From Pseudobacteriovorax antillogorgiicola (GTDB lineage Bacteria; Bdellovibrionota_B; Oligoflexia; Oligoflexales; Oligoflexaceae): a stretch of 64,000 nucleotides of DNA. The DNA is taken from contig NZ_FWZT01000004.1 of NCBI RefSeq assembly GCF_900177345.1, forward strand, positions 124,001 to 188,000. The letters are read 5' to 3'. The first letter of the stretch is position 1. The number at the start of each line of letters is the position of its first letter. Position numbers and translations under genes: made by a program. The notes beneath the pieces were generated by a model. The model saw only the letters and a program-made list of their open reading frames with translations, had not been told where the DNA came from and made no database searches. Shown piece after piece: positions 41,536 through 52,418 of this stretch.

Positions 41536-41652
41536 GGTGAATTCAGGGCCCTCGAACTCCTTCCGGCTGCACAGGTTCTAGAGGGAGAATTTTGGTGAGT
41601 AATGTTAGAATATCTTGAGGCCCAATCCTATGAATTAAGCCTGAGGAAAGTG

Positions 41653-44424
41653 ATGTCATACAAGCTGATGCTCACCCTACTAATCATGACGAGCAAAGCT
41701 TTCTCGTCTGAATACGACCTAGCACAAATGCAGCAAGGAGATCTCCTTGGGCGCTATCTTTCAATCTATCAGAACAGCGAGGATCCCTTAAGCTCTACAA
41801 AAGCCTTTGAGATTTATAGACAGGGAGGCTTTACCCGCAATCATAGTGATCGACCAAATTTCGGTGCGAGTACTGATGAGTATTGGGCAGCGATTGAACT
41901 TGTAAATGGCGATGAACAAAGATCTATTATTATCGAGAATGATCACGGTATTATAGACTACTATGATGTGTATCTGATCGATGCAAGCGGGATTCGGTCA
42001 ATCCTCGAAGCCGGAGACCAACAGGCATTTAGCAATCGCTACCTTAAGATCCGAACTATGAATGCTCAGGTGATCTTGCCCCCAGGTAAATCAACGGTCT
42101 TGTTTCGCAGTCAGGGAGAGAGCACTAACTATCTGTCTCTTAAAGTCTGGGACGAGGCACCCTATGAAGAAGCAATGCGTTGGGACTTCTTGCTGATTGG
42201 ATTGTTGATTGGCGCACATATTGTGATGATTGTCTACAATGCAATCCTAGCAATCAGTATGAGAGATGCCGTCTATTGGTCCTATGTGGTTTGTGTTTCA
42301 TTGAACCTTCTACTTCATATTAGTGCGATCAACTTTGGTCAGTTCCTGGGTTTTCACCTATTTGGATTTGAAACCTATAGTAACCATATCCAATTGGTTT
42401 TGATCGATCTTATCATCATAAGTTCCATCATCTTTTCTTGGCTTTTTCTCGATATGAAGCACTCAAAGTTCCGCTCGTTCACTCTGCTGGCCAAGATGAT
42501 CTGTACGGTCAGTCTCATCAATATTTTTGTGAACAACCTATGGTCCGTGCCGCTAACTTCGATCATGGTTATGCTCTCGTCAGCGGCACTGATTCCCCTT
42601 GTAGTCTCTCTCGGATTGCTACGTTATTTTAAGGAAGGCTATCAGCCAGCTCTTGTGTTTCTTTGCGCTTGGGGAACTTACTTGCTGGGCAGTGCGGGAT
42701 ACTTGTTTGTCAGTCTTGGTGTAGTAGAAAGCAATGCTTTCTTCTATTGGGGACAATTCGTTGGTGGCGCTGCCGAGGTCAGCCTCTTCTCGATCGCGCT
42801 GGGTATACGTTTTAGCTACACCAAAAAGAAGAATGCCAGCAAGATCGCAGCATTAAATGAGGAGCTTAATCAAATCAATCGTGGCCTAGAGGAAAAGGTG
42901 CAGGTTCGAACCCAAGAGGTTCAAGATATCCTGACTCACATTCACCAAGGTATATTCACGACCAGCGATGGCCTCACCATTGATCAGAAATACTCTGCGT
43001 ATCTCGAAACTCTTCTAGGCTGTAAAGCCTTAGGCGGCAGAGCTCTTACGGACGTTTTGCTCAATGATAGCAACCTTTCTAGTGATCAAGTTGATCAATT
43101 GAAAACGGCCTTGTCGATGGCTTTGGGCGAAGAGTCGCTGGCCTTTGATATCAATAATCACCTTCTTCCTGATAAGCTGGACTTTAAAAACCCAGAAGGG
43201 CGGCAGCTTATGATGGAGCTAGATTGGAACCCTCTGATCAAGGATGATGTTGTGGATAGGATTTTGGTTGCCATTCGTGATATGACTGAAAAGCACGAGA
43301 TGCAAAAGCAAATTGATCAGAAGGGGCGAGAGATTGAATTAATTCGCCAACTAATCGATGTCAAGCCAGAAAGATTCTCTCAATTTCGAAAGGTCTTTAG
43401 TGATATGATGTCAGCCATTGATCCTATTGTGGAGCACCAGATTATCACACATGATGATATTCGCTCGACATTTATTAGCTACCACACTCTTAAAGGTGTC
43501 TCTCGAAGCTTGGATCTAAGGCAACTGAGTACTGTGATCCATGACGCAGAAACTCTCTTGGTAAGATGGAGAGATGAAGGCAAAGCTCAAGACCCTGAGG
43601 AGCTACGACTCGCCCATCAAAGAATTCATGACATGTTCCAAGAGTATATCGAAATCAACGACCATCGCCTTGGAAGGGTGGTCGATCATCGGTTCATCCA
43701 GGTCTCCAGGGAGTTAGTGCTGAGGGTCATTGAAGGTGTGGAAGCTCTTGGTAGGCTTCCAGACGTTTTAGATGATGACATGTTAAGCCTTAAGAAATAC
43801 TACTACAAAACCCCTGAAGATATTGTCTATGAACAGCTTGACTCGATTCGAGATATCGCCGAGCAGCTTGGGAAGCCCTTACCCAAGATCCATTACGTTA
43901 ATCATAATTTTGGTCTATCCCCCCAGGCGGCGGAGATTTTTGAGAAGGTCCTCGTCCACCTAATTAGAAACTCCCTGGCACATGGTCTGGAAACTGGCAA
44001 TGAACGCATATCTCGGGGCAAGGCCGAGCGGGGTGAAATCACGATTTCCCTTTCGGAGACGTCGAAGGTCTTAACCATTCACTACTGTGATGATGGTCGC
44101 GGCATTAGTCTTAAAGAGATTCAAGAGCGAGCTCAGAAATTAGGGGTTGCTCTCCCCAGTCACGCTAGCCATCAAGAAGTGGTGGAGCTGCTCTTTACAT
44201 CCGGTTTCTCAACTCAGAAGGAAGCTAACAATGTAGCGGGCCGCGGGGTTGGGTTGGATGCAGTACGCAGTTTTCTAAATGATATTTCATCCGCGATTGG
44301 GGTGGAACTGAGGAGCCTTCCCCATTACCCAGATCGCTTTGGCTTAGATTTTGTGATGTCTTTTCAATCCGAGTGCTATCACCGGCTCGCCAGTGAGGGG
44401 ATAAGTCAGGTCGGGGCTGCTTAG
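41653..44424 (+). CDS. 7TMR-DISM receptor with Hpt and CheA-like kinase domains
   Basis: ATG 41653 has GAGGAAAG six bases upstream and opens a signal peptide (MSYKLMLTLLIMTSKAFS). The 923-residue protein has a DISM extracellular domain (about 20-180), seven membrane helices (about 190-395) and a coiled helix. It then has a PAS-like region (about 430-560), an Hpt-like domain with the box SYHTLKGVSRSLDL (His-Thr-Leu-Lys-Gly), and a CheA-type ATPase with N box LIRNSLAHGLE and G boxes DDGRGISL, AGRGVGLD. The C-terminus lacks a CheW-like domain. It would phosphorylate its own Hpt His and pass phosphate on to a receiver, which is not adjacent. It is the third DISM receptor in the window. Confidence 0.87.
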   Translation: MSYKLMLTLLIMTSKAFSSEYDLAQMQQGDLLGRYLSIYQNSEDPLSSTKAFEIYRQGGFTRNHSDRPNFGASTDEYWAAIELVNGDEQRSIIIENDHGIIDYYDVYLIDASGIRSILEAGDQQAFSNRYLKIRTMNAQVILPPGKSTVLFRSQGESTNYLSLKVWDEAPYEEAMRWDFLLIGLLIGAHIVMIVYNAILAISMRDAVYWSYVVCVSLNLLLHISAINFGQFLGFHLFGFETYSNHIQLVLIDLIIISSIIFSWLFLDMKHSKFRSFTLLAKMICTVSLINIFVNNLWSVPLTSIMVMLSSAALIPLVVSLGLLRYFKEGYQPALVFLCAWGTYLLGSAGYLFVSLGVVESNAFFYWGQFVGGAAEVSLFSIALGIRFSYTKKKNASKIAALNEELNQINRGLEEKVQVRTQEVQDILTHIHQGIFTTSDGLTIDQKYSAYLETLLGCKALGGRALTDVLLNDSNLSSDQVDQLKTALSMALGEESLAFDINNHLLPDKLDFKNPEGRQLMMELDWNPLIKDDVVDRILVAIRDMTEKHEMQKQIDQKGREIELIRQLIDVKPERFSQFRKVFSDMMSAIDPIVEHQIITHDDIRSTFISYHTLKGVSRSLDLRQLSTVIHDAETLLVRWRDEGKAQDPEELRLAHQRIHDMFQEYIEINDHRLGRVVDHRFIQVSRELVLRVIEGVEALGRLPDVLDDDMLSLKKYYYKTPEDIVYEQLDSIRDIAEQLGKPLPKIHYVNHNFGLSPQAAEIFEKVLVHLIRNSLAHGLETGNERISRGKAERGEITISLSETSKVLTIHYCDDGRGISLKEIQERAQKLGVALPSHASHQEVVELLFTSGFSTQKEANNVAGRGVGLDAVRSFLNDISSAIGVELRSLPHYPDRFGLDFVMSFQSECYHRLASEGISQVGAA

Positions 44425-44728: not shown

Positions 44729-46177
44729 ATGATAAAGTCTCTTTTTGTTGTCGATGATGAGTTTGTAACCCGCTTTCCCTCGCTGAAAGCCATCAGCTTC
44801 ACCAACTATCTGCAAGACTATCCTAAGCTAAACGAACCGAAAACTCGGGTGATTAACCTTTGTCATATTGACCGCCACCTGAGCCAGGGATACTATTGCT
44901 CCCTATTGGCTGAGGCGCGTCATCACGAGGCCCTCCCTAACGTGAAGGTGATAAACGCGCTTCGCAATCAGGAGACAGCTAGCATTTGGCTCGGTCACTC
45001 ACCGATCGCAAGAAGCTTTGCGGCGAAGCAGCGGCAAGAAGAGCAGCTGGTTTGCATGGGTGAGGTAGCGGACGATAGGTTTAGTCGCATCGCTAGCAAG
45101 GTCTTTCAGCAATTTTCTGCACCCCTGCTTCAGATCAGTGTGATCAAAGAAGATGCTGGACTAAGGGTTGTGGTTCGTGGCACCGCTCTTGGCAAGCTTT
45201 CCGAGGACGATCTAGCTTTTTGTCTTAAAACACTGGAAAGCTACCAGCATCGCACCTGGCGCAAGCCGGAAAGCGAAAAAAAATTCCGCTGGGATATTGC
45301 CATGCTGGTGAACCCTGATGAAGAGGTGCCTCCGAGTAATCGAGGGGCGATTTCTAGATTTACGAAAGCTGGTGAGAAGCTAGGCATCCGTGTTCGAACA
45401 GTAACTGTCGCAGATCTACAGTTGCTTGAGCAATTTGATGGTCTCTTTATTCGCGAAACAACGGCCATTGATCACCACACCTATCAGTTGGCCCAAAAGG
45501 CTGAGTCTCAGGGCCTTGTGGTTATTGATGACCCTAATTCTATTCTTCGCTGCTGGAACAAGGTGTTTCTTCATGATGCCTTTAACTATAAGAAAATCCC
45601 CAGCCTGAAGACTCAGTTTATTATGGATGTGAAAGAGGAGACTCTAGCTCAGCTTGAAAAAAGCTTCTCCTATCCGATCGTTTTAAAGATGCCTGAGGGA
45701 TCATGTTCCAGAGGTGTCTTTAAAGTTGAGGATCGAAAGGAGCTTCAAGAAACCATTCAGAAGCTTCTCAAGGAATCAGCCCTTGTGCTAGCTCAAGAGT
45801 ATATGTTTACCGATTTTGATTGGCGAATCGGAGTGCTCGGTGGTCGGGCTCTCTACGCTTGTCGCTACTATATGGCTCGCAACCATTGGCAGATCTATAA
45901 TCATGGGACGAAGAGCGACTTTTCAGGTGGTTTTGATGCTCTACCGACCTTTGAAGTGCCTCGCCTGGTTCTCGATGCTGCTTTAAAAGCAGCTGCGGTT
46001 GTCGGTGACGGCCTTTATGGAATCGATATCAAAGAGCGTGATGGCAAGGCGTTTGTTCTGGAGGTCAATGACAACCCTAGCATTGAGCATGGGGTCGAAG
46101 ATCACTATCTTGGTGAAGAGTTATATATGCAGATTATGTCAGAATTTTTGCGCCGTCTTGAAGCAAGGGGGCGATAG
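44729..46177 (+). CDS. RimK-type ATP-grasp ligase with RLAN N-terminal domain
   Basis: ATG 44729 (GGAAGA upstream) is preferred to the GTG at 44657. The 482-residue protein joins a RimK-like ATP-grasp N-terminal (RLAN) domain (about 1-200, opening SLFVVDDEFVTRFPS and TNYLQDYPKL) to an ATP-grasp domain (about 230-480). Motifs include VIDDPNSILRCWNKVFLHDAF, YPIVLKMPEGSCSRGVFKV, VLAQEYM, and GIDIKERDGKAFVLEVNDNPS, which provide nucleotide and metal contacts. ATP-grasp ligases activate a carboxylate as acyl phosphate and join it to an amine, often adding amino acids to a protein or peptide. It is followed at two bases by the DUF2817 peptidase and then the GNAT-C39 fusion. Confidence 0.88.
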   Translation: MIKSLFVVDDEFVTRFPSLKAISFTNYLQDYPKLNEPKTRVINLCHIDRHLSQGYYCSLLAEARHHEALPNVKVINALRNQETASIWLGHSPIARSFAAKQRQEEQLVCMGEVADDRFSRIASKVFQQFSAPLLQISVIKEDAGLRVVVRGTALGKLSEDDLAFCLKTLESYQHRTWRKPESEKKFRWDIAMLVNPDEEVPPSNRGAISRFTKAGEKLGIRVRTVTVADLQLLEQFDGLFIRETTAIDHHTYQLAQKAESQGLVVIDDPNSILRCWNKVFLHDAFNYKKIPSLKTQFIMDVKEETLAQLEKSFSYPIVLKMPEGSCSRGVFKVEDRKELQETIQKLLKESALVLAQEYMFTDFDWRIGVLGGRALYACRYYMARNHWQIYNHGTKSDFSGGFDALPTFEVPRLVLDAALKAAAVVGDGLYGIDIKERDGKAFVLEVNDNPSIEHGVEDHYLGEELYMQIMSEFLRRLEARGR

Positions 46178-46179
46178 GA

Positions 46180-47289
46180 ATGGATATTCTTAAACACATA
46201 TTTGGTGGGCAAGTAGCCTCTCACTGGTTCAAGAATACCTACGAAGGCAGTGTTTCGCAGTATCTAGCGGGTATAGATAGATTGAATTGCCAGCCGGTAG
46301 AAACCAAGGATTGGCCAATTCTAGAAACTCCAGAGCTGGTCACTCACACTGCCTGGATTGGGCGCCGGGATGCGGTGCGGGTTTTGGTGCTTATCAGCGG
46401 GACCCACGGAGTGGAAGGCTACTGCGGTAGTGCAGTACAAAGCTGTATTTTGGAAGAATTTAGTCAGGATCGTATCAAACTGGAGCTACAGCAGGCAGTT
46501 CTTATGATCCATGCTCTAAATCCATGGGGTATGAAGTGGGCGAGGCGATGTGATCAGGAAGGCATCGACCTGAACCGAAATTTTATCGACTTTGGCAAGA
46601 AGCCGGAAAGTCATCCCTTGTTTCAAGAATTCGCGGCAGCATTGGCTTGTGAGAATAAGACTGAACGTGATCAACGACTCCATGCCTTGCTTGCAACTAT
46701 GGGACAAACAGAATTCGATATTATGGTGAGCGGCGGTCAGTATTTGATCGATTGGGCCCCTTTCTACGGTGGCCAGGGACCAGCATTCGCTAATCCGGTG
46801 ATGGATGAGATCATCCAAGATTGGGGTTTAGAGGGGCGGCAGACGGTTGTGGTTGATCTTCATTCGGGGCTGGGGCCTTGGGCTTATGGAGAAGTGATAT
46901 CAGATCACCCCATTGAAAGCTCAGGAAGTGAATTCGCGAGCCGTTTGTTTGGCCAAGCCCTAGCAGAAACCGCTCGTGGCGAATCATTTTCTGTACCCAA
47001 GGAGGGGCTTCTCGATTATCGTTGGCATCAGTTAATGAATGACTCGGGGTGCTTTGTCACCCTGGAATTTGGCACTTATAGCAAAGAACGACTCTTTCAA
47101 GTTCTTTGTGACGAGCACGGCTTCTGGAAAGATTTTAAGGAGGTGGATGCCAATGATTCATCTTACCTAAAGCGCCGCTCAGCCATGCTTCATCATTTTT
47201 GCCCTGATGATTTACTTTGGCAGCAGGCCGTCCTCTTCAAGGGATGGCAGGTGGTATCCCAAGTTCTGGAGTATCATCGTGAATCGTAA
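46180..47289 (+). CDS. M14-like DUF2817 zinc peptidase
   Basis: The ATG at 46180 starts two bases after the ligase stop. The 369-residue protein matches DUF2817, an M14 carboxypeptidase-like group. Zinc ligands are apparent at His76 and Glu79 in GTHGVEGYCGS and at His228 in VVDLHSGLGPWA. NRNF near 132-135 would contact the substrate terminus, and Glu296 in FVTLEFGTYS is in the position of the catalytic base. There is no signal peptide, so it acts inside the cell. In this operon it may remove residues that the ATP-grasp ligase adds, or trim a peptide. It overlaps the GNAT-C39 gene by 11 bases. Confidence 0.87.
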   Translation: MDILKHIFGGQVASHWFKNTYEGSVSQYLAGIDRLNCQPVETKDWPILETPELVTHTAWIGRRDAVRVLVLISGTHGVEGYCGSAVQSCILEEFSQDRIKLELQQAVLMIHALNPWGMKWARRCDQEGIDLNRNFIDFGKKPESHPLFQEFAAALACENKTERDQRLHALLATMGQTEFDIMVSGGQYLIDWAPFYGGQGPAFANPVMDEIIQDWGLEGRQTVVVDLHSGLGPWAYGEVISDHPIESSGSEFASRLFGQALAETARGESFSVPKEGLLDYRWHQLMNDSGCFVTLEFGTYSKERLFQVLCDEHGFWKDFKEVDANDSSYLKRRSAMLHHFCPDDLLWQQAVLFKGWQVVSQVLEYHRES

Positions 47290-48409
47290 TTCTATGGTTA
47301 TTAGGATCGCTGAAGAAAAGGATCTTGCTGGCCTTCTTGAGATTGAAGAAACGGCATTTATTGGTGATAGAATGAGTCGTCGTAGTTTTCGTCATCACAT
47401 TCGATCTGAGCATAGTGATCTTGTACTTGTAGAAAATGTATCAAAAGAAGAGATGCCGAAGGTTTTAGCCTATGGTTTAACCTTTCGTCACCGAGGTACG
47501 CGCCTCGCTAGGCTATACTCGATTGCTGTACATCCCCAAGCAAGGGGCCTAGGTTTAGCAACTGATCTTCTTGATCACCTTGAAAACCTAGCCGCCGCAG
47601 CTGGTTGGTTGTATATGCGCCTAGAAGTTGCAAAGAACAACCCTAAGGCGATACAACTATACGAAAAATCGGGCTATCGAGTTTTCGGCGAGTACTCGGA
47701 TTACTATGAGGATCATAGTGATGCTTTGAGGATGCAGAAAAGGATTCGTCAGCAAGACATGGATGGGTTTAGCCGACTTACCCCATGGTATCAGCAAACA
47801 ACTTTGTTTACCTGTGGGCCGTCGTCCTTGATGATGGCCATGTCGAGTCATGACGATACTATTGAAATGTGTCAAGGTACAGAAATCGATCTTTGGCGGG
47901 AGGCTACAACAGTTTTTATGACTTCAGGTCATGGGGGCTGTCATCCGTTCGGTTTAGCACTCGCTGCGAAACGTCGTGGTTTTGAGGCATTAGCCATGGT
48001 TAACTCCGAGCAGGTCCTATTTCTCGATGGAGTTCGCTCAGAAACCAAAAAAGAGGTTCTCGCTCTGGTTCATAATCAGTTTCTCTCATCATGTCACAGG
48101 GCTGGAGTGAGCATAGCTTATCAGGATGTTACCCAGCATCAGGTAGAATCCTGGCTCAGATCAGGATACTCGGTTTTAATCTTAATCAGTACTTATCGTC
48201 TTGACGGTAAGAAAGCTCCCCATTGGGTGGTAGTAACCGGCGTTGATCAGCAGTGTTTCTATGTTCATGATCCTTATGTAGAGCCTGAAGAGCAAGTTGC
48301 GATTGATTGCCAGCATATTCCAATCGCAAGAAACGACTTCGATAAGATGTCTGCTTTTGGATCAAGTCGTCTCCGAGCCGCTGTAGCTTTAAAGAAATCT
48401 GTTGCTTAA
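47279..48409 (+). CDS. GNAT acetyltransferase fused to C39-like peptidase (DUF3335 type)
   Basis: The start is a GTG at 47279 with GGAG seven bases upstream, inside the preceding gene's end; an ATG at 47294 is the alternative. The 376-residue protein has a GNAT domain (about 5-155) with the CoA-binding block RLYSIAVHPQARGLGLATDL, then a papain-fold C39-like domain (about 165-370). The putative catalytic Cys179 is in LFTCGPSSLMMA, His315 in APHWVVVTG and Asp331 in FYVHDPYV. This fusion is known next to RLAN/RimK ligases. Together with the ligase and M14-like peptidase it suggests synthesis, acylation and processing of a peptide or peptide tag, a role inferred from comparative studies of amidoligase operons. 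Confidence 0.87.
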   Translation: MNRNSMVIRIAEEKDLAGLLEIEETAFIGDRMSRRSFRHHIRSEHSDLVLVENVSKEEMPKVLAYGLTFRHRGTRLARLYSIAVHPQARGLGLATDLLDHLENLAAAAGWLYMRLEVAKNNPKAIQLYEKSGYRVFGEYSDYYEDHSDALRMQKRIRQQDMDGFSRLTPWYQQTTLFTCGPSSLMMAMSSHDDTIEMCQGTEIDLWREATTVFMTSGHGGCHPFGLALAAKRRGFEALAMVNSEQVLFLDGVRSETKKEVLALVHNQFLSSCHRAGVSIAYQDVTQHQVESWLRSGYSVLILISTYRLDGKKAPHWVVVTGVDQQCFYVHDPYVEPEEQVAIDCQHIPIARNDFDKMSAFGSSRLRAAVALKKSVA

Positions 48410-49911: not shown

Positions 49912-50252
49912 GTACTGAACTCAAATCAAGACGGGCAATGAGGGCTTAAGCCCTCGTTGCTTCGCTTAGAAAACCGTAAAACCAAGTAATTTTAATATTA
50001 TGTCTCCGTTGTTAGATGTCTTATAGCAGCTGACGATAGGAAGTTCTGGACCACCTCAAAACAATCCAGGCACCTAATAACACCTCTTGTTTCTTACCTG
50101 CAGACACTTTTCTTAGTCCACATGAGTAGTTTCCAGAAATTAATTAGTTCCCAGAGCCTTTTATAATGATTGGCAAAGAAGAGGTCTATAAAGGCGAATC
50201 AGCCAGGAGACGATCTTACCTAAACGTATTCCACACCATAAAAGGTTACACC
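49912..50252. other. Intergenic region, 341 bases
   Basis: A hairpin at 49935-49960 lies just after the metzincin stop (listed separately). The remaining part up to the delta-60 lipoprotein shows no gene. The promoter for that gene should be here; no clear -35/-10 pair noticed. Confidence 0.5.
49935..49960 (+). terminator. Strong hairpin after the metzincin gene
   Basis: GCAATGAGGGC and GCCCTCGTTGC form an 11-bp stem with one G:T pair around a TTAA loop. The following sequence has only TT pairs, so it is a weaker intrinsic terminator than usual. Confidence 0.6.
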
Positions 50253-52418
50253 ATGAATTACTTCTCTAGCATAGCCGCTAGAATACTTATTTTGAGTACA
50301 ATGCTCGCATCTTGCAGCCCCGAATCCTCGGTTGTTATCGATAAGACTGCAAATCTAGACGATGTAACCTTCAGTCAAGGGAACCAAGTGGTCTTAAACT
50401 CCGATTCTGGGGTCGTCACTGTTGAAACCCTGGTTCCCGATGGAGTTGTGGGCCAGATTCAAGTTGAAATTGGAGATTCATTCGAGACCAATGAGGCGGT
50501 GCAAGAGTTAGATTTAGACGGCTTCGACAACGCTGGTGAGTCGATTACGTTTGGCTCTGATAGCGATATGGACCAGACCTCGATTGGCCAGATCCAAGTC
50601 TCTATTCCTCTCACGCAGACGTCTCTATGGCTCCAAGGTGAACGAAGCCTTGTGATTCTTTATCATATTGAGACCATAGATGGAAATAAGGTTGGTTTCA
50701 TTACATCACGTAATTACTCCCGCACATCCGGAAAGCTAAAGTTCTACCTTCGGGGTTTTGGTCAGTATCAACCCGTTTGGCTCAATCAAACGTACACTGA
50801 AGAGAAAGAAGTCATAACAGCAGCTCCAGTACGCCTGCCGAAACGAAGCGAGGAGACGGCCCAAACAACTAAAGATCCAGGTGATATCACTGCACCGGGA
50901 CTTCCCTTGGTTGCGAGCTACACGAAGCTTTATTCGAGCTCACCAAGTCAAACTGTATCTTGGCAGGCCCCTGGGGACAAGGATGTTGTCAAGTATCACG
51001 TTAAGGTCTGTACCGATACATCGTGTAGTAGTAATTGCTCGGTGAGTACCATGACAACAGATACGTCGATCACTGTGAATAATCTGAGCGCTGGTTCTTC
51101 CTATTATACTTGTGTTGCAGCCGAGGACAGCTCGGGCAATCTATCGCCGTTTTCTCGCCCCCAGAATCCAGTAACTATTGCTGAACCAGGTAGCCTAGAT
51201 TTGGATTTTAACTCTTCAGGTTTAGTAACGCAGAACGGGGCTGCTAGTGGCTTTGATTCGATCTATGACCTTGTGGGCCTCCCCGACGGTTCCTCCATCG
51301 CTGTTGGGGCGATTTTCAATGGCAACGATAATGATGTTAGCATTTGGAAATTTAAACCCAATGGAAGTCTTGATAGCAATTTTGCCAGCTCTGGTGTGCT
51401 TATCGTTGATGACATTACTGGCAATGGTCCTGATCAAGAGATCGCTCACGCGGTTGCACTTGATCCCAGTGGCAAAATCCTGATTGCTGGCTATGGGAGC
51501 AATGGCAGCGATGATGATGGCTTCATTCTAAGGATCGATGGTAACGGTAATTTCGATACGACGTTCAATAGCACGGGCGTTGCTCTGCTAGATAATATCA
51601 TCACGACGTCGCAATCTGAGCGGATTCAGGATATCGCAATTGATGCCGATGGTAACATTCTCGTCACTGGTTATGCTGGTAATGGCATCGACAACGATCT
51701 ATTTCTTGGCAAAGTCGATAGCACTGGTGCTATTGACACCAGCTTTGGCAGCCTTGGATATTCCTCAAAGGATGGCGGCGCGGCAGATCGAGCTAATGGC
51801 ATTGCTATTGATGGCAACGGGCAAATTCTAGTTGGTGGTTTTTTCACAGGAACAGATCGTAAGGCTGCTGTCTGTCGATATAATACGGATGGTAGTTTAG
51901 ATACAGGCTTTGCAGTCAGTGGCTGTCTGGAGCTGGATGATACTGCTGGTGGCCCTGGTGACGATGAGATCCTTGATATTAGAATCGACTCTCAAAACAA
52001 CACAATTGCAACTGGCTTCTCAAGCAACGGTTCAAACAAAGATATGGCTATCTGGAAGATTGATACGGGCGGAAACCTCGATACGTCGTTTAATGGCACA
52101 GGTTATGTGATCCATGACAGCGCCGCGGGCGGAGCTGATGATGACTTAGGAGGTAGTATTGCTTTGAGTCCTGGCCGGATTTATATATCTGGCTCTAGCC
52201 AGGACGGGCAAATGAATCACGTTCTTTGGTGTTATAAAGCTGATGGTAGCATCTGTAGCAATTTCTCTGATTCTGGCTACATGCTTTACGAGCTTTCTGG
52301 TCAAGGCAGTGCCAGTGAAGCAGTGATTACAACGCCAAGCGGGAGCCTACTCAGCGCTGGCCGTCTATTTGATCCTGCTGAGCAGTACAATGCAGCTCTT
52401 TGGATGATTCTCCCCTGA
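50253..52418 (+). CDS. Lipoprotein with fibronectin-type and delta-60 repeats
   Basis: ATG 50253 has AAAGG seven bases upstream and starts a lipoprotein signal peptide (LSTMLASCSPES). The 721-residue protein has an N-terminal beta-rich domain (about 25-200), a fibronectin type III-like domain (about 210-305, with VSWQAPGDKDVVKYHV and SSYYTCVAAEDSSGN), then about six delta-60 repeats (about 310-700). Each repeat has the pattern G-x-G-x-LD-x-x-F, then a hydrophobic strand, then D-x-x-G-K/N-I-L-I/V-x-G. These repeats fold as a beta-propeller in a family first noted in delta-proteobacteria and Bdellovibrio relatives. A surface adhesion or binding role is inferred. It has no obvious catalytic residues. 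Confidence 0.85.
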   Translation: MNYFSSIAARILILSTMLASCSPESSVVIDKTANLDDVTFSQGNQVVLNSDSGVVTVETLVPDGVVGQIQVEIGDSFETNEAVQELDLDGFDNAGESITFGSDSDMDQTSIGQIQVSIPLTQTSLWLQGERSLVILYHIETIDGNKVGFITSRNYSRTSGKLKFYLRGFGQYQPVWLNQTYTEEKEVITAAPVRLPKRSEETAQTTKDPGDITAPGLPLVASYTKLYSSSPSQTVSWQAPGDKDVVKYHVKVCTDTSCSSNCSVSTMTTDTSITVNNLSAGSSYYTCVAAEDSSGNLSPFSRPQNPVTIAEPGSLDLDFNSSGLVTQNGAASGFDSIYDLVGLPDGSSIAVGAIFNGNDNDVSIWKFKPNGSLDSNFASSGVLIVDDITGNGPDQEIAHAVALDPSGKILIAGYGSNGSDDDGFILRIDGNGNFDTTFNSTGVALLDNIITTSQSERIQDIAIDADGNILVTGYAGNGIDNDLFLGKVDSTGAIDTSFGSLGYSSKDGGAADRANGIAIDGNGQILVGGFFTGTDRKAAVCRYNTDGSLDTGFAVSGCLELDDTAGGPGDDEILDIRIDSQNNTIATGFSSNGSNKDMAIWKIDTGGNLDTSFNGTGYVIHDSAAGGADDDLGGSIALSPGRIYISGSSQDGQMNHVLWCYKADGSICSNFSDSGYMLYELSGQGSASEAVITTPSGSLLSAGRLFDPAEQYNAALWMILP

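Follow-up and report, generated by a model that had tools for sequence, protein, structure and literature searches.

A conserved RLAN ATP-grasp ligase, DUF2817 and GNAT-C39 gene trio, a candidate peptide-making and editing module, in Pseudobacteriovorax antillogorgiicola

The subject of this analysis is a 64,000-nucleotide stretch of the Pseudobacteriovorax antillogorgiicola genome (contig NZ_FWZT01000004.1, positions 124,001 to 188,000; hereafter the window), in which three consecutive plus-strand genes at positions 44729-48409 encode, in order, an RLAN/RimK-type ATP-grasp ligase, a DUF2817 protein and a GNAT-DUF3335 (C39) fusion. An earlier, sequence-only reading had proposed that these genes act together in making or attaching a peptide. 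The proposal that they form one module is borne out, in that the DUF2817 partner belongs to a dedicated clade, carries its own sequence fingerprint and co-occurs with the other components beyond chance. The analysis established which genes make up the set, how far they are conserved, that their catalytic residues are in place, that the trio DUF2817 proteins group in a dedicated clade, and that GNAT and GCS2 genes exclude one another at RLAN loci. The case for a single functional module is much stronger than that for either candidate product, a peptide or a protein tail.

Conservation of the gene trio

The expectation that the trio would recur in related genomes failed within the phylum of the window and held outside it. 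None of 57 relatives in the phylum has a DUF2817 match adjoining an RLAN match (one, G022, has RLAN and GNAT-C39 without DUF2817), but the trio is common in two orders of Gammaproteobacteria. The 13 loci returned by the first homologue search were all gammaproteobacterial by name, and in these the ligase adjoins a GNAT or GNAT-C39 gene with no DUF2817. Among 369 sampled gammaproteobacterial genomes, RLAN is present in 81 and strong DUF3335 matches in 57, of which 56 also have RLAN (compared by eye). Strong DUF2817 matches are present in 13 of the 369, and in four of these the gene adjoins RLAN and GNAT-C39, once with all three genes codirectional, which is the layout of the window, and three times with a divergent ligase.

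A profile (A5) was built from five trio DUF2817 proteins. With matches above 350 bits counted and weaker ones excluded, it gave 90 strong matches among 251 genomes from one order of Gammaproteobacteria; from a second order, 63 genomes yielded 29. Within the flanks read at 59 of these loci, the ligase was found in 57 and GNAT-C39 in 58. Across the 251 genomes, DUF2817 and RLAN occur together in 86, RLAN only in 17 (103 RLAN genomes in total), DUF2817 only in 4 and neither in 144; the Fisher value for this co-occurrence, 3e-44, overstates the independence of the observations, since the genomes are related members of one order. The DUF2817 gene is no more than 3 kb from RLAN in 64 of 90 cases (50 divergent, 14 codirectional), and at further loci with a non-adjacent ligase it immediately precedes GNAT-C39, in the same orientation, in 20 of 20. 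Overall, DUF2817 adjoins GNAT-C39 at 83 of 85 loci, a count made up of 58/59 and 20/20 together with the window, L131 and L132, and with L328 and L329 as positives and L330 as a negative; G511 and G515 have DUF2817 with neither partner adjacent. The association is tightest between DUF2817 and GNAT-C39; where the ligase is separated from them, it is still mostly retained in the genome. DUF2817 is not essential to the core, because many loci of the GNAT type lack it. The genome of P. antillogorgiicola itself has one RLAN gene, one DUF2817 gene over the cut-off and one DUF3335 gene, all at the trio locus.

The three proteins

The domain assignments of the sequence-only reading were upheld for all three proteins. 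Identification of the second protein as DUF2817 is secure (PF10994, 232.5 bits against a cut-off of 23). Five trio DUF2817 proteins form a single clade set apart from 10 others (support 98/97), and the same result was obtained against 15 others, five of them from the phylum of the window (96/99). The clade shares two motifs, YGE.I.DH after the zinc histidine and K.GL.DY.W before the catalytic glutamate, and both are present at 59 of 59 loci read outside the five-protein training set, although two of these, L231 and L261, come from the same genomes as training rows. The window protein lies on a long branch of the DUF2817 tree. Residues H76, E79, R123, N132, R133, H228 and E296 are invariant in 45 of 45 trio-type sequences and fit the M14 pattern of HxxE...H zinc ligands, an Arg plus NR carboxylate clamp, and a catalytic Glu; the zinc-ligand, clamp and general-base roles are assigned from those of M14 enzymes. 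Comparison with the PDB gave a weak match to MpaA, and assignment as the murein tripeptide amidase MpaA was rejected (NF007897, 22.2 bits against a cut-off of 157). A single-sequence structure model of the protein (P0002) was discarded on account of a predicted local distance difference test score (pLDDT) of 35. A search for viral relatives found no match to GNAT-C39 and a single weak stretch of similarity to DUF2817.

The ligase scores well above threshold for RLAN (PF14401, 107.1 bits against 25) and for the RimK domain (37.6 against 21), and all 140 ligases compared share its ATP-grasp residues N277, K278, K320, D364, R366, D433, E445 and N447. Its top NCBIfam match is LysX_arch, yet assignment as LysX (TIGR02144) was rejected, at 81 bits against a cut-off of 275.6, as was assignment to the RimK family alpha-L-glutamate ligases (TIGR00768, 80.5 bits against 143.4). 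The closest solved structures include RimK, and ArgX in complex with its protein carrier LysW. A partial AlphaFold model (pLDDT 66.8) placed RimK, LysX and ArgX among the top Foldseek matches, with a root-mean-square deviation of about 8-11; as such matches are at the level of the superfamily, the model was used only for the RimK/LysX-like label. A lone RLAN gene is present in 201 of the 203 RLAN genomes from the phylum, gammaproteobacterial class and order samples (G318, present in two samples, counted once). The exceptions are G549 and G579, with two genes each; in G562, G563 and G620 one gene gives a match split in two pieces. Separately, an RLAN-like ligase annotated as RimK family is carried by Pseudomonas aeruginosa plasmid pZYPA1927 (L290:4881-6470), without an annotated GNAT-C39 neighbour.

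The third protein matches DUF3335 (PF11814) at 302 bits against a cut-off of 25, and GNAT families over their Pfam cut-offs. The GNAT domain is RimI-like as opposed to RimI proper (TIGR01575, 69.5 bits, E 3e-19, against a cut-off of 86.4), and its top PDB matches are mostly N-terminal acetyltransferases. Across 104 GNAT-C39 proteins, no substitution is seen at the GNAT residues R114, E116, Y143 and D145 or at the papain-type residues Q173, C179 and H315, while D331 is retained in 102; the acetyl-CoA motif is looser, with R89 in 83 proteins (Q at that position in 14) and G92 in 91.

Locus organisation

Feature coordinates are collected in Table 1. The close packing of the genes described earlier was confirmed. 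A gap of 2 bases separates the end of the ligase gene (46177) from the start of DUF2817 (46180), and the end of DUF2817 (47289) overlaps the GTG start of GNAT-C39 (47279) by 11 bases, with GGAG a few bases 5' of the GTG. The latter overlap depends, however, on the start chosen, since the alternative ATG at 47294, at which the homologue L007 starts, would give a 4-base gap. Promoter and terminator scans gave results near or under chance level.

A scan for small open reading frames (ORFs) of 20-80 aa at 43.9-49.2 kb, with one Shine-Dalgarno rule, found them only inside the ligase gene or across its end, in agreement with the earlier statement that no obvious substrate peptide gene is adjacent. 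Just 5' of the trio (41602-44424) lies a 7TMR-DISM sensor kinase-like gene with HATPase and Hpt domains, and 50166-52418 encodes a large protein with fn3 and DUF5122 beta-propeller repeats (both by Pfam).

Table 1. Features of the trio locus, in window positions (all domain and motif residue numbers refer to the parent protein)
Feature	Position	Strand	Basis
RLAN/RimK-like ATP-grasp amide ligase, 482 aa	44729..46177	+	Pfam RLAN and RimK, invariant residues, partial AlphaFold model
RLAN domain, residues 25-159	44801..45205	+	PF14401, 107 bits
Trio-type DUF2817, 369 aa; putative M14-like zinc carboxypeptidase/amidohydrolase	46180..47289	+	PF10994, invariant residues, own clade
DUF2817 trio fingerprint 1, residues 236-243, YGEVISDH	46885..46908	+	Present in 59/59 loci
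DUF2817 trio fingerprint 2, residues 274-282, K.GL.DY.W; presumed specificity-pocket loop	46999..47025	+	59/59 loci
GNAT-DUF3335 (C39) fusion, 376 aa	47279..48409	+	Pfam; alternative start ATG 47294
GNAT domain, RimI/N-alpha-acetyltransferase type	47279..47743	+	TIGR01575 below cut-off; PDB matches; invariant residues
DUF3335 papain-like (C39) domain, C179-H315-D331	47780..48391	+	PF11814, 302 bits

A sister RLAN cluster and the origin of the window copy

RLAN is present in 20 of 58 genomes of the phylum of the window, that is, in 19 relatives, at 15 of which the locus was read and at four not. Fourteen of the 15 have RLAN with a GCS2 ligase, most also with C39 and FGase genes, and one (G022) has RLAN with GNAT-C39. 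This sister cluster resembles the trio in its same-family RLAN ligase and related C39 protein (hhalign 97.9%, E 4e-13, for C39 proteins of the GNAT and GCS2 types) and differs in having GCS2 where the trio has GNAT, and FGase where the trio has DUF2817. Over 109 RLAN loci (15 phylum relatives, 80 from the gammaproteobacterial sample, 13 from the first search and the window), GNAT is present at 74, GCS2 at 28, both at none, C39 alone at two and none of these at five, some clusters being cut by the ends of the loci. GCS2 and FGase are absent from the window locus, the rest of the genome not having been searched for them.

In trees, the window ligase and GNAT-C39 group with proteins of Amphritea, Thalassotalea, Porticoccaceae and Colwellia, apart from the type native to the phylum, which suggests that the window copy was transferred from Gammaproteobacteria. 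The case for transfer is phylogenetic, as codon use is ordinary (the trio genes rank 28, 9 and 27 of 34) and does not flag the trio as foreign. As regards contamination, the contig that carries the locus is at least 188 kb long. Since the nearest gammaproteobacterial loci lack DUF2817, this gene would either have been lost there or have joined the window copy separately.

Recurrent neighbours

Neighbouring genes at the 109 loci were clustered using ORFs of at least 90 aa. A DUF155 (RMND1/Sif2-Sif3) gene, a possible fourth member, lies near RLAN loci of both types at 9 of 109, and follows GNAT-C39 at 8 of the 59 further loci (examples are L130:5739-6533, L132:10302-10778, L145:7849-8640 and L203:4463-5266). 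Another M14 zinc carboxypeptidase (PF00246) is divergent from GNAT-C39 at six GNAT-type loci without DUF2817 (L148:3933-5702, L149:8796-10490, L151, L152, L163 and L175; by Pfam on L149 and by profile on the others), which may be another way in which an M14 partner is employed. At 15 ligase loci the GNAT-C39/RLAN pair adjoins an argE-type (acetylornithine deacetylase) gene, for example L147:3516-4673 (NCBIfam on L147 only), argA is next to the argE-type gene in L166 (L166:9267-10592), and argD is upstream of the pair in Amphritea loci.

Proposed function and alternatives

The enzymes suit the making and breaking of peptide bonds and N-acetylation, as the sequence-only reading had it. It is tentatively proposed that the trio acts in the cytoplasm to make a short N-capped peptide and to edit it. 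On this proposal, the RLAN ligase would use ATP to activate a carboxylate, to which an amino acid is added; the RimI-like GNAT would acetylate the free alpha-amine; the trio-type DUF2817 zinc hydrolase would clamp the C-terminal carboxylate and take off the last residue, undoing the ligase step; and the fused papain-like C39 domain would cleave or transfer an internal amide. The place of GNAT in the sister cluster would fall to a GCS2-type ligase, putatively adding a gamma-glutamyl cap, and that of DUF2817 to FGase. We infer all of these reactions, the order of steps, the cap, and a small peptide as opposed to a protein as substrate. GNAT and GCS2 would then be alternative ways of capping an amine, and it is the swap of one for the other that leads to the prediction of a capped peptide; the GCS2 ligase of the sister cluster makes a glutathione-like small peptide quite plausible as product. 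More broadly, there may possibly be a widespread uncharacterised pathway in which an N-acetylated peptide is both made and recycled, together with a sister pathway whose cap is of the gamma-glutamyl type (GCS2/FGase), the two being variants of one metabolic device, present as one RLAN per genome and exchanged between phyla.

Several observations weigh against the capped-peptide proposal and the unity of the trio. A DUF2817 match stands without an RLAN match in four of the 251 genomes, and only 4 of 81 RLAN genomes in the class sample have DUF2817 beside RLAN. The C39 domain is dispensable at the locus, since GNAT stands alone in L006, L010 and L012 (confirmed by Pfam for L006 and L010). That DUF2817 and FGase fill the same hydrolase slot would be a parallel of function only, as a profile comparison (hhalign, 3.4% probability) gave no backing to related folds and homologous replacement was rejected. 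Finally, the usual targets of RimI-like GNATs are proteins, which favours a product of another kind.

That product would be a protein tail, added reversibly: the ligase would attach amino acids to a cellular protein, either C-terminally or on a side chain, DUF2817 would trim them, and GNAT-C39 would acetylate or cleave the target. This is the chief alternative to the capped peptide and is somewhat unlikely, despite the presence of RimK and LysW-bound ArgX among the best solved relatives of the ligase, the N-terminal acetyltransferase character of the GNAT, the freedom from any need for a precursor gene, and the recurrence of the translation-linked family DUF155/RMND1. The loci lack a conserved target-protein gene (among ORFs of at least 90 aa), and GNAT is replaced in the sister type by a GCS2 ligase, of a family known to act on small molecules. 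A precedent for such a writer and eraser is nevertheless available in RimK-RimB (PMC12239564).

A further reading, in the manner of LysX/ArgX and linked to arginine, in which amino acids would be made or scavenged on a scaffold (an acyl group or a carrier protein), is improbable. LysX_arch heads the NCBIfam list and the argE-type, argA and argD neighbours described above would be in keeping with it, but the score is far under the LysX cut-off, LysW was looked for at the locus only and no gene for it was noted there, and the arg neighbours may represent gene order inherited in a few clades. Even less can be said for a ribosomally synthesised and post-translationally modified peptide (RiPP), in which the ligase would modify a precursor encoded elsewhere, with C39, DUF2817 and GNAT as the processing enzymes. 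ATP-grasp and C39 enzymes are found in RiPP systems, but the window locus has no candidate precursor ORF (by the single rule used here, with the genome not searched and the 109-locus clustering confined to ORFs of at least 90 aa), and this account is highly improbable. Lastly, that DUF2817 is a bystander inserted in a ligase/GNAT-C39 pair is scarcely credible, since, although the nearest ligases to that of the window (Amphritea, Thalassotalea, Porticoccaceae) occur in pairs without DUF2817, the dedicated clade, the fingerprint, the co-occurrence and the coupling to GNAT-C39 contradict it.

An RLAN ligase is present in 81 of the 369 genomes of the gammaproteobacterial class sample, yet no assigned product was found in the literature searched. 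The DUF2817 partner, with its conserved motif, offers a biochemical handle, being the likely reversing enzyme of the ligase.

Comparison with known systems

The literature search found nothing on the function of RLAN, the function of DUF2817, or a trio with a DUF2817 partner. The known part is the RLAN and GNAT-C39 (DUF3335) pair, which was reportedly noted by Iyer and colleagues in 2009; that pair is of the same families as the present ligase and GNAT-C39 fusion, to which the trio adds a dedicated DUF2817 partner with its fingerprint, not found in print in the literature searched.

Among other systems, the N-acetylglutaminylglutamine amide (NAGGN) osmolyte cluster (TIGR03103 and partners) likewise brings an ATP-grasp enzyme, a GNAT and a metallohydrolase together, but from families other than those of the trio; assignment of the trio as NAGGN synthetase was rejected (TIGR03103, 26.4 bits for trio protein P0003 against a cut-off of 569; P0001 was not listed). 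Tubulin TTLL ligases and CCP M14 carboxypeptidases also pair an ATP-grasp writer with an M14 eraser, and differ in being eukaryotic and without a GNAT-C39 fusion.

Published accounts describe DUF3335 as often fused to GNAT domains, citing Iyer 2009 (PMC10318531), and place a RimK family protein beside a GNAT in a Pseudomonas fosmid (PMC9756463). Deletion of Francisella rimK (FTT0178, 490 aa) is reported to cause no attenuation (PMC2675058), and the length of the protein suggests that it is an RLAN ligase. RimK with its counter-protease RimB has been described among the RimK-RimB / Rlo systems of Pseudomonas (PMC12239564). The RimK-RimB protease is aspartic, and RLAN and GNAT go unmentioned in the accessible part of that article; the likeness to the trio is that an ATP-grasp ligase has a protease as its partner, acting to reverse or balance it.

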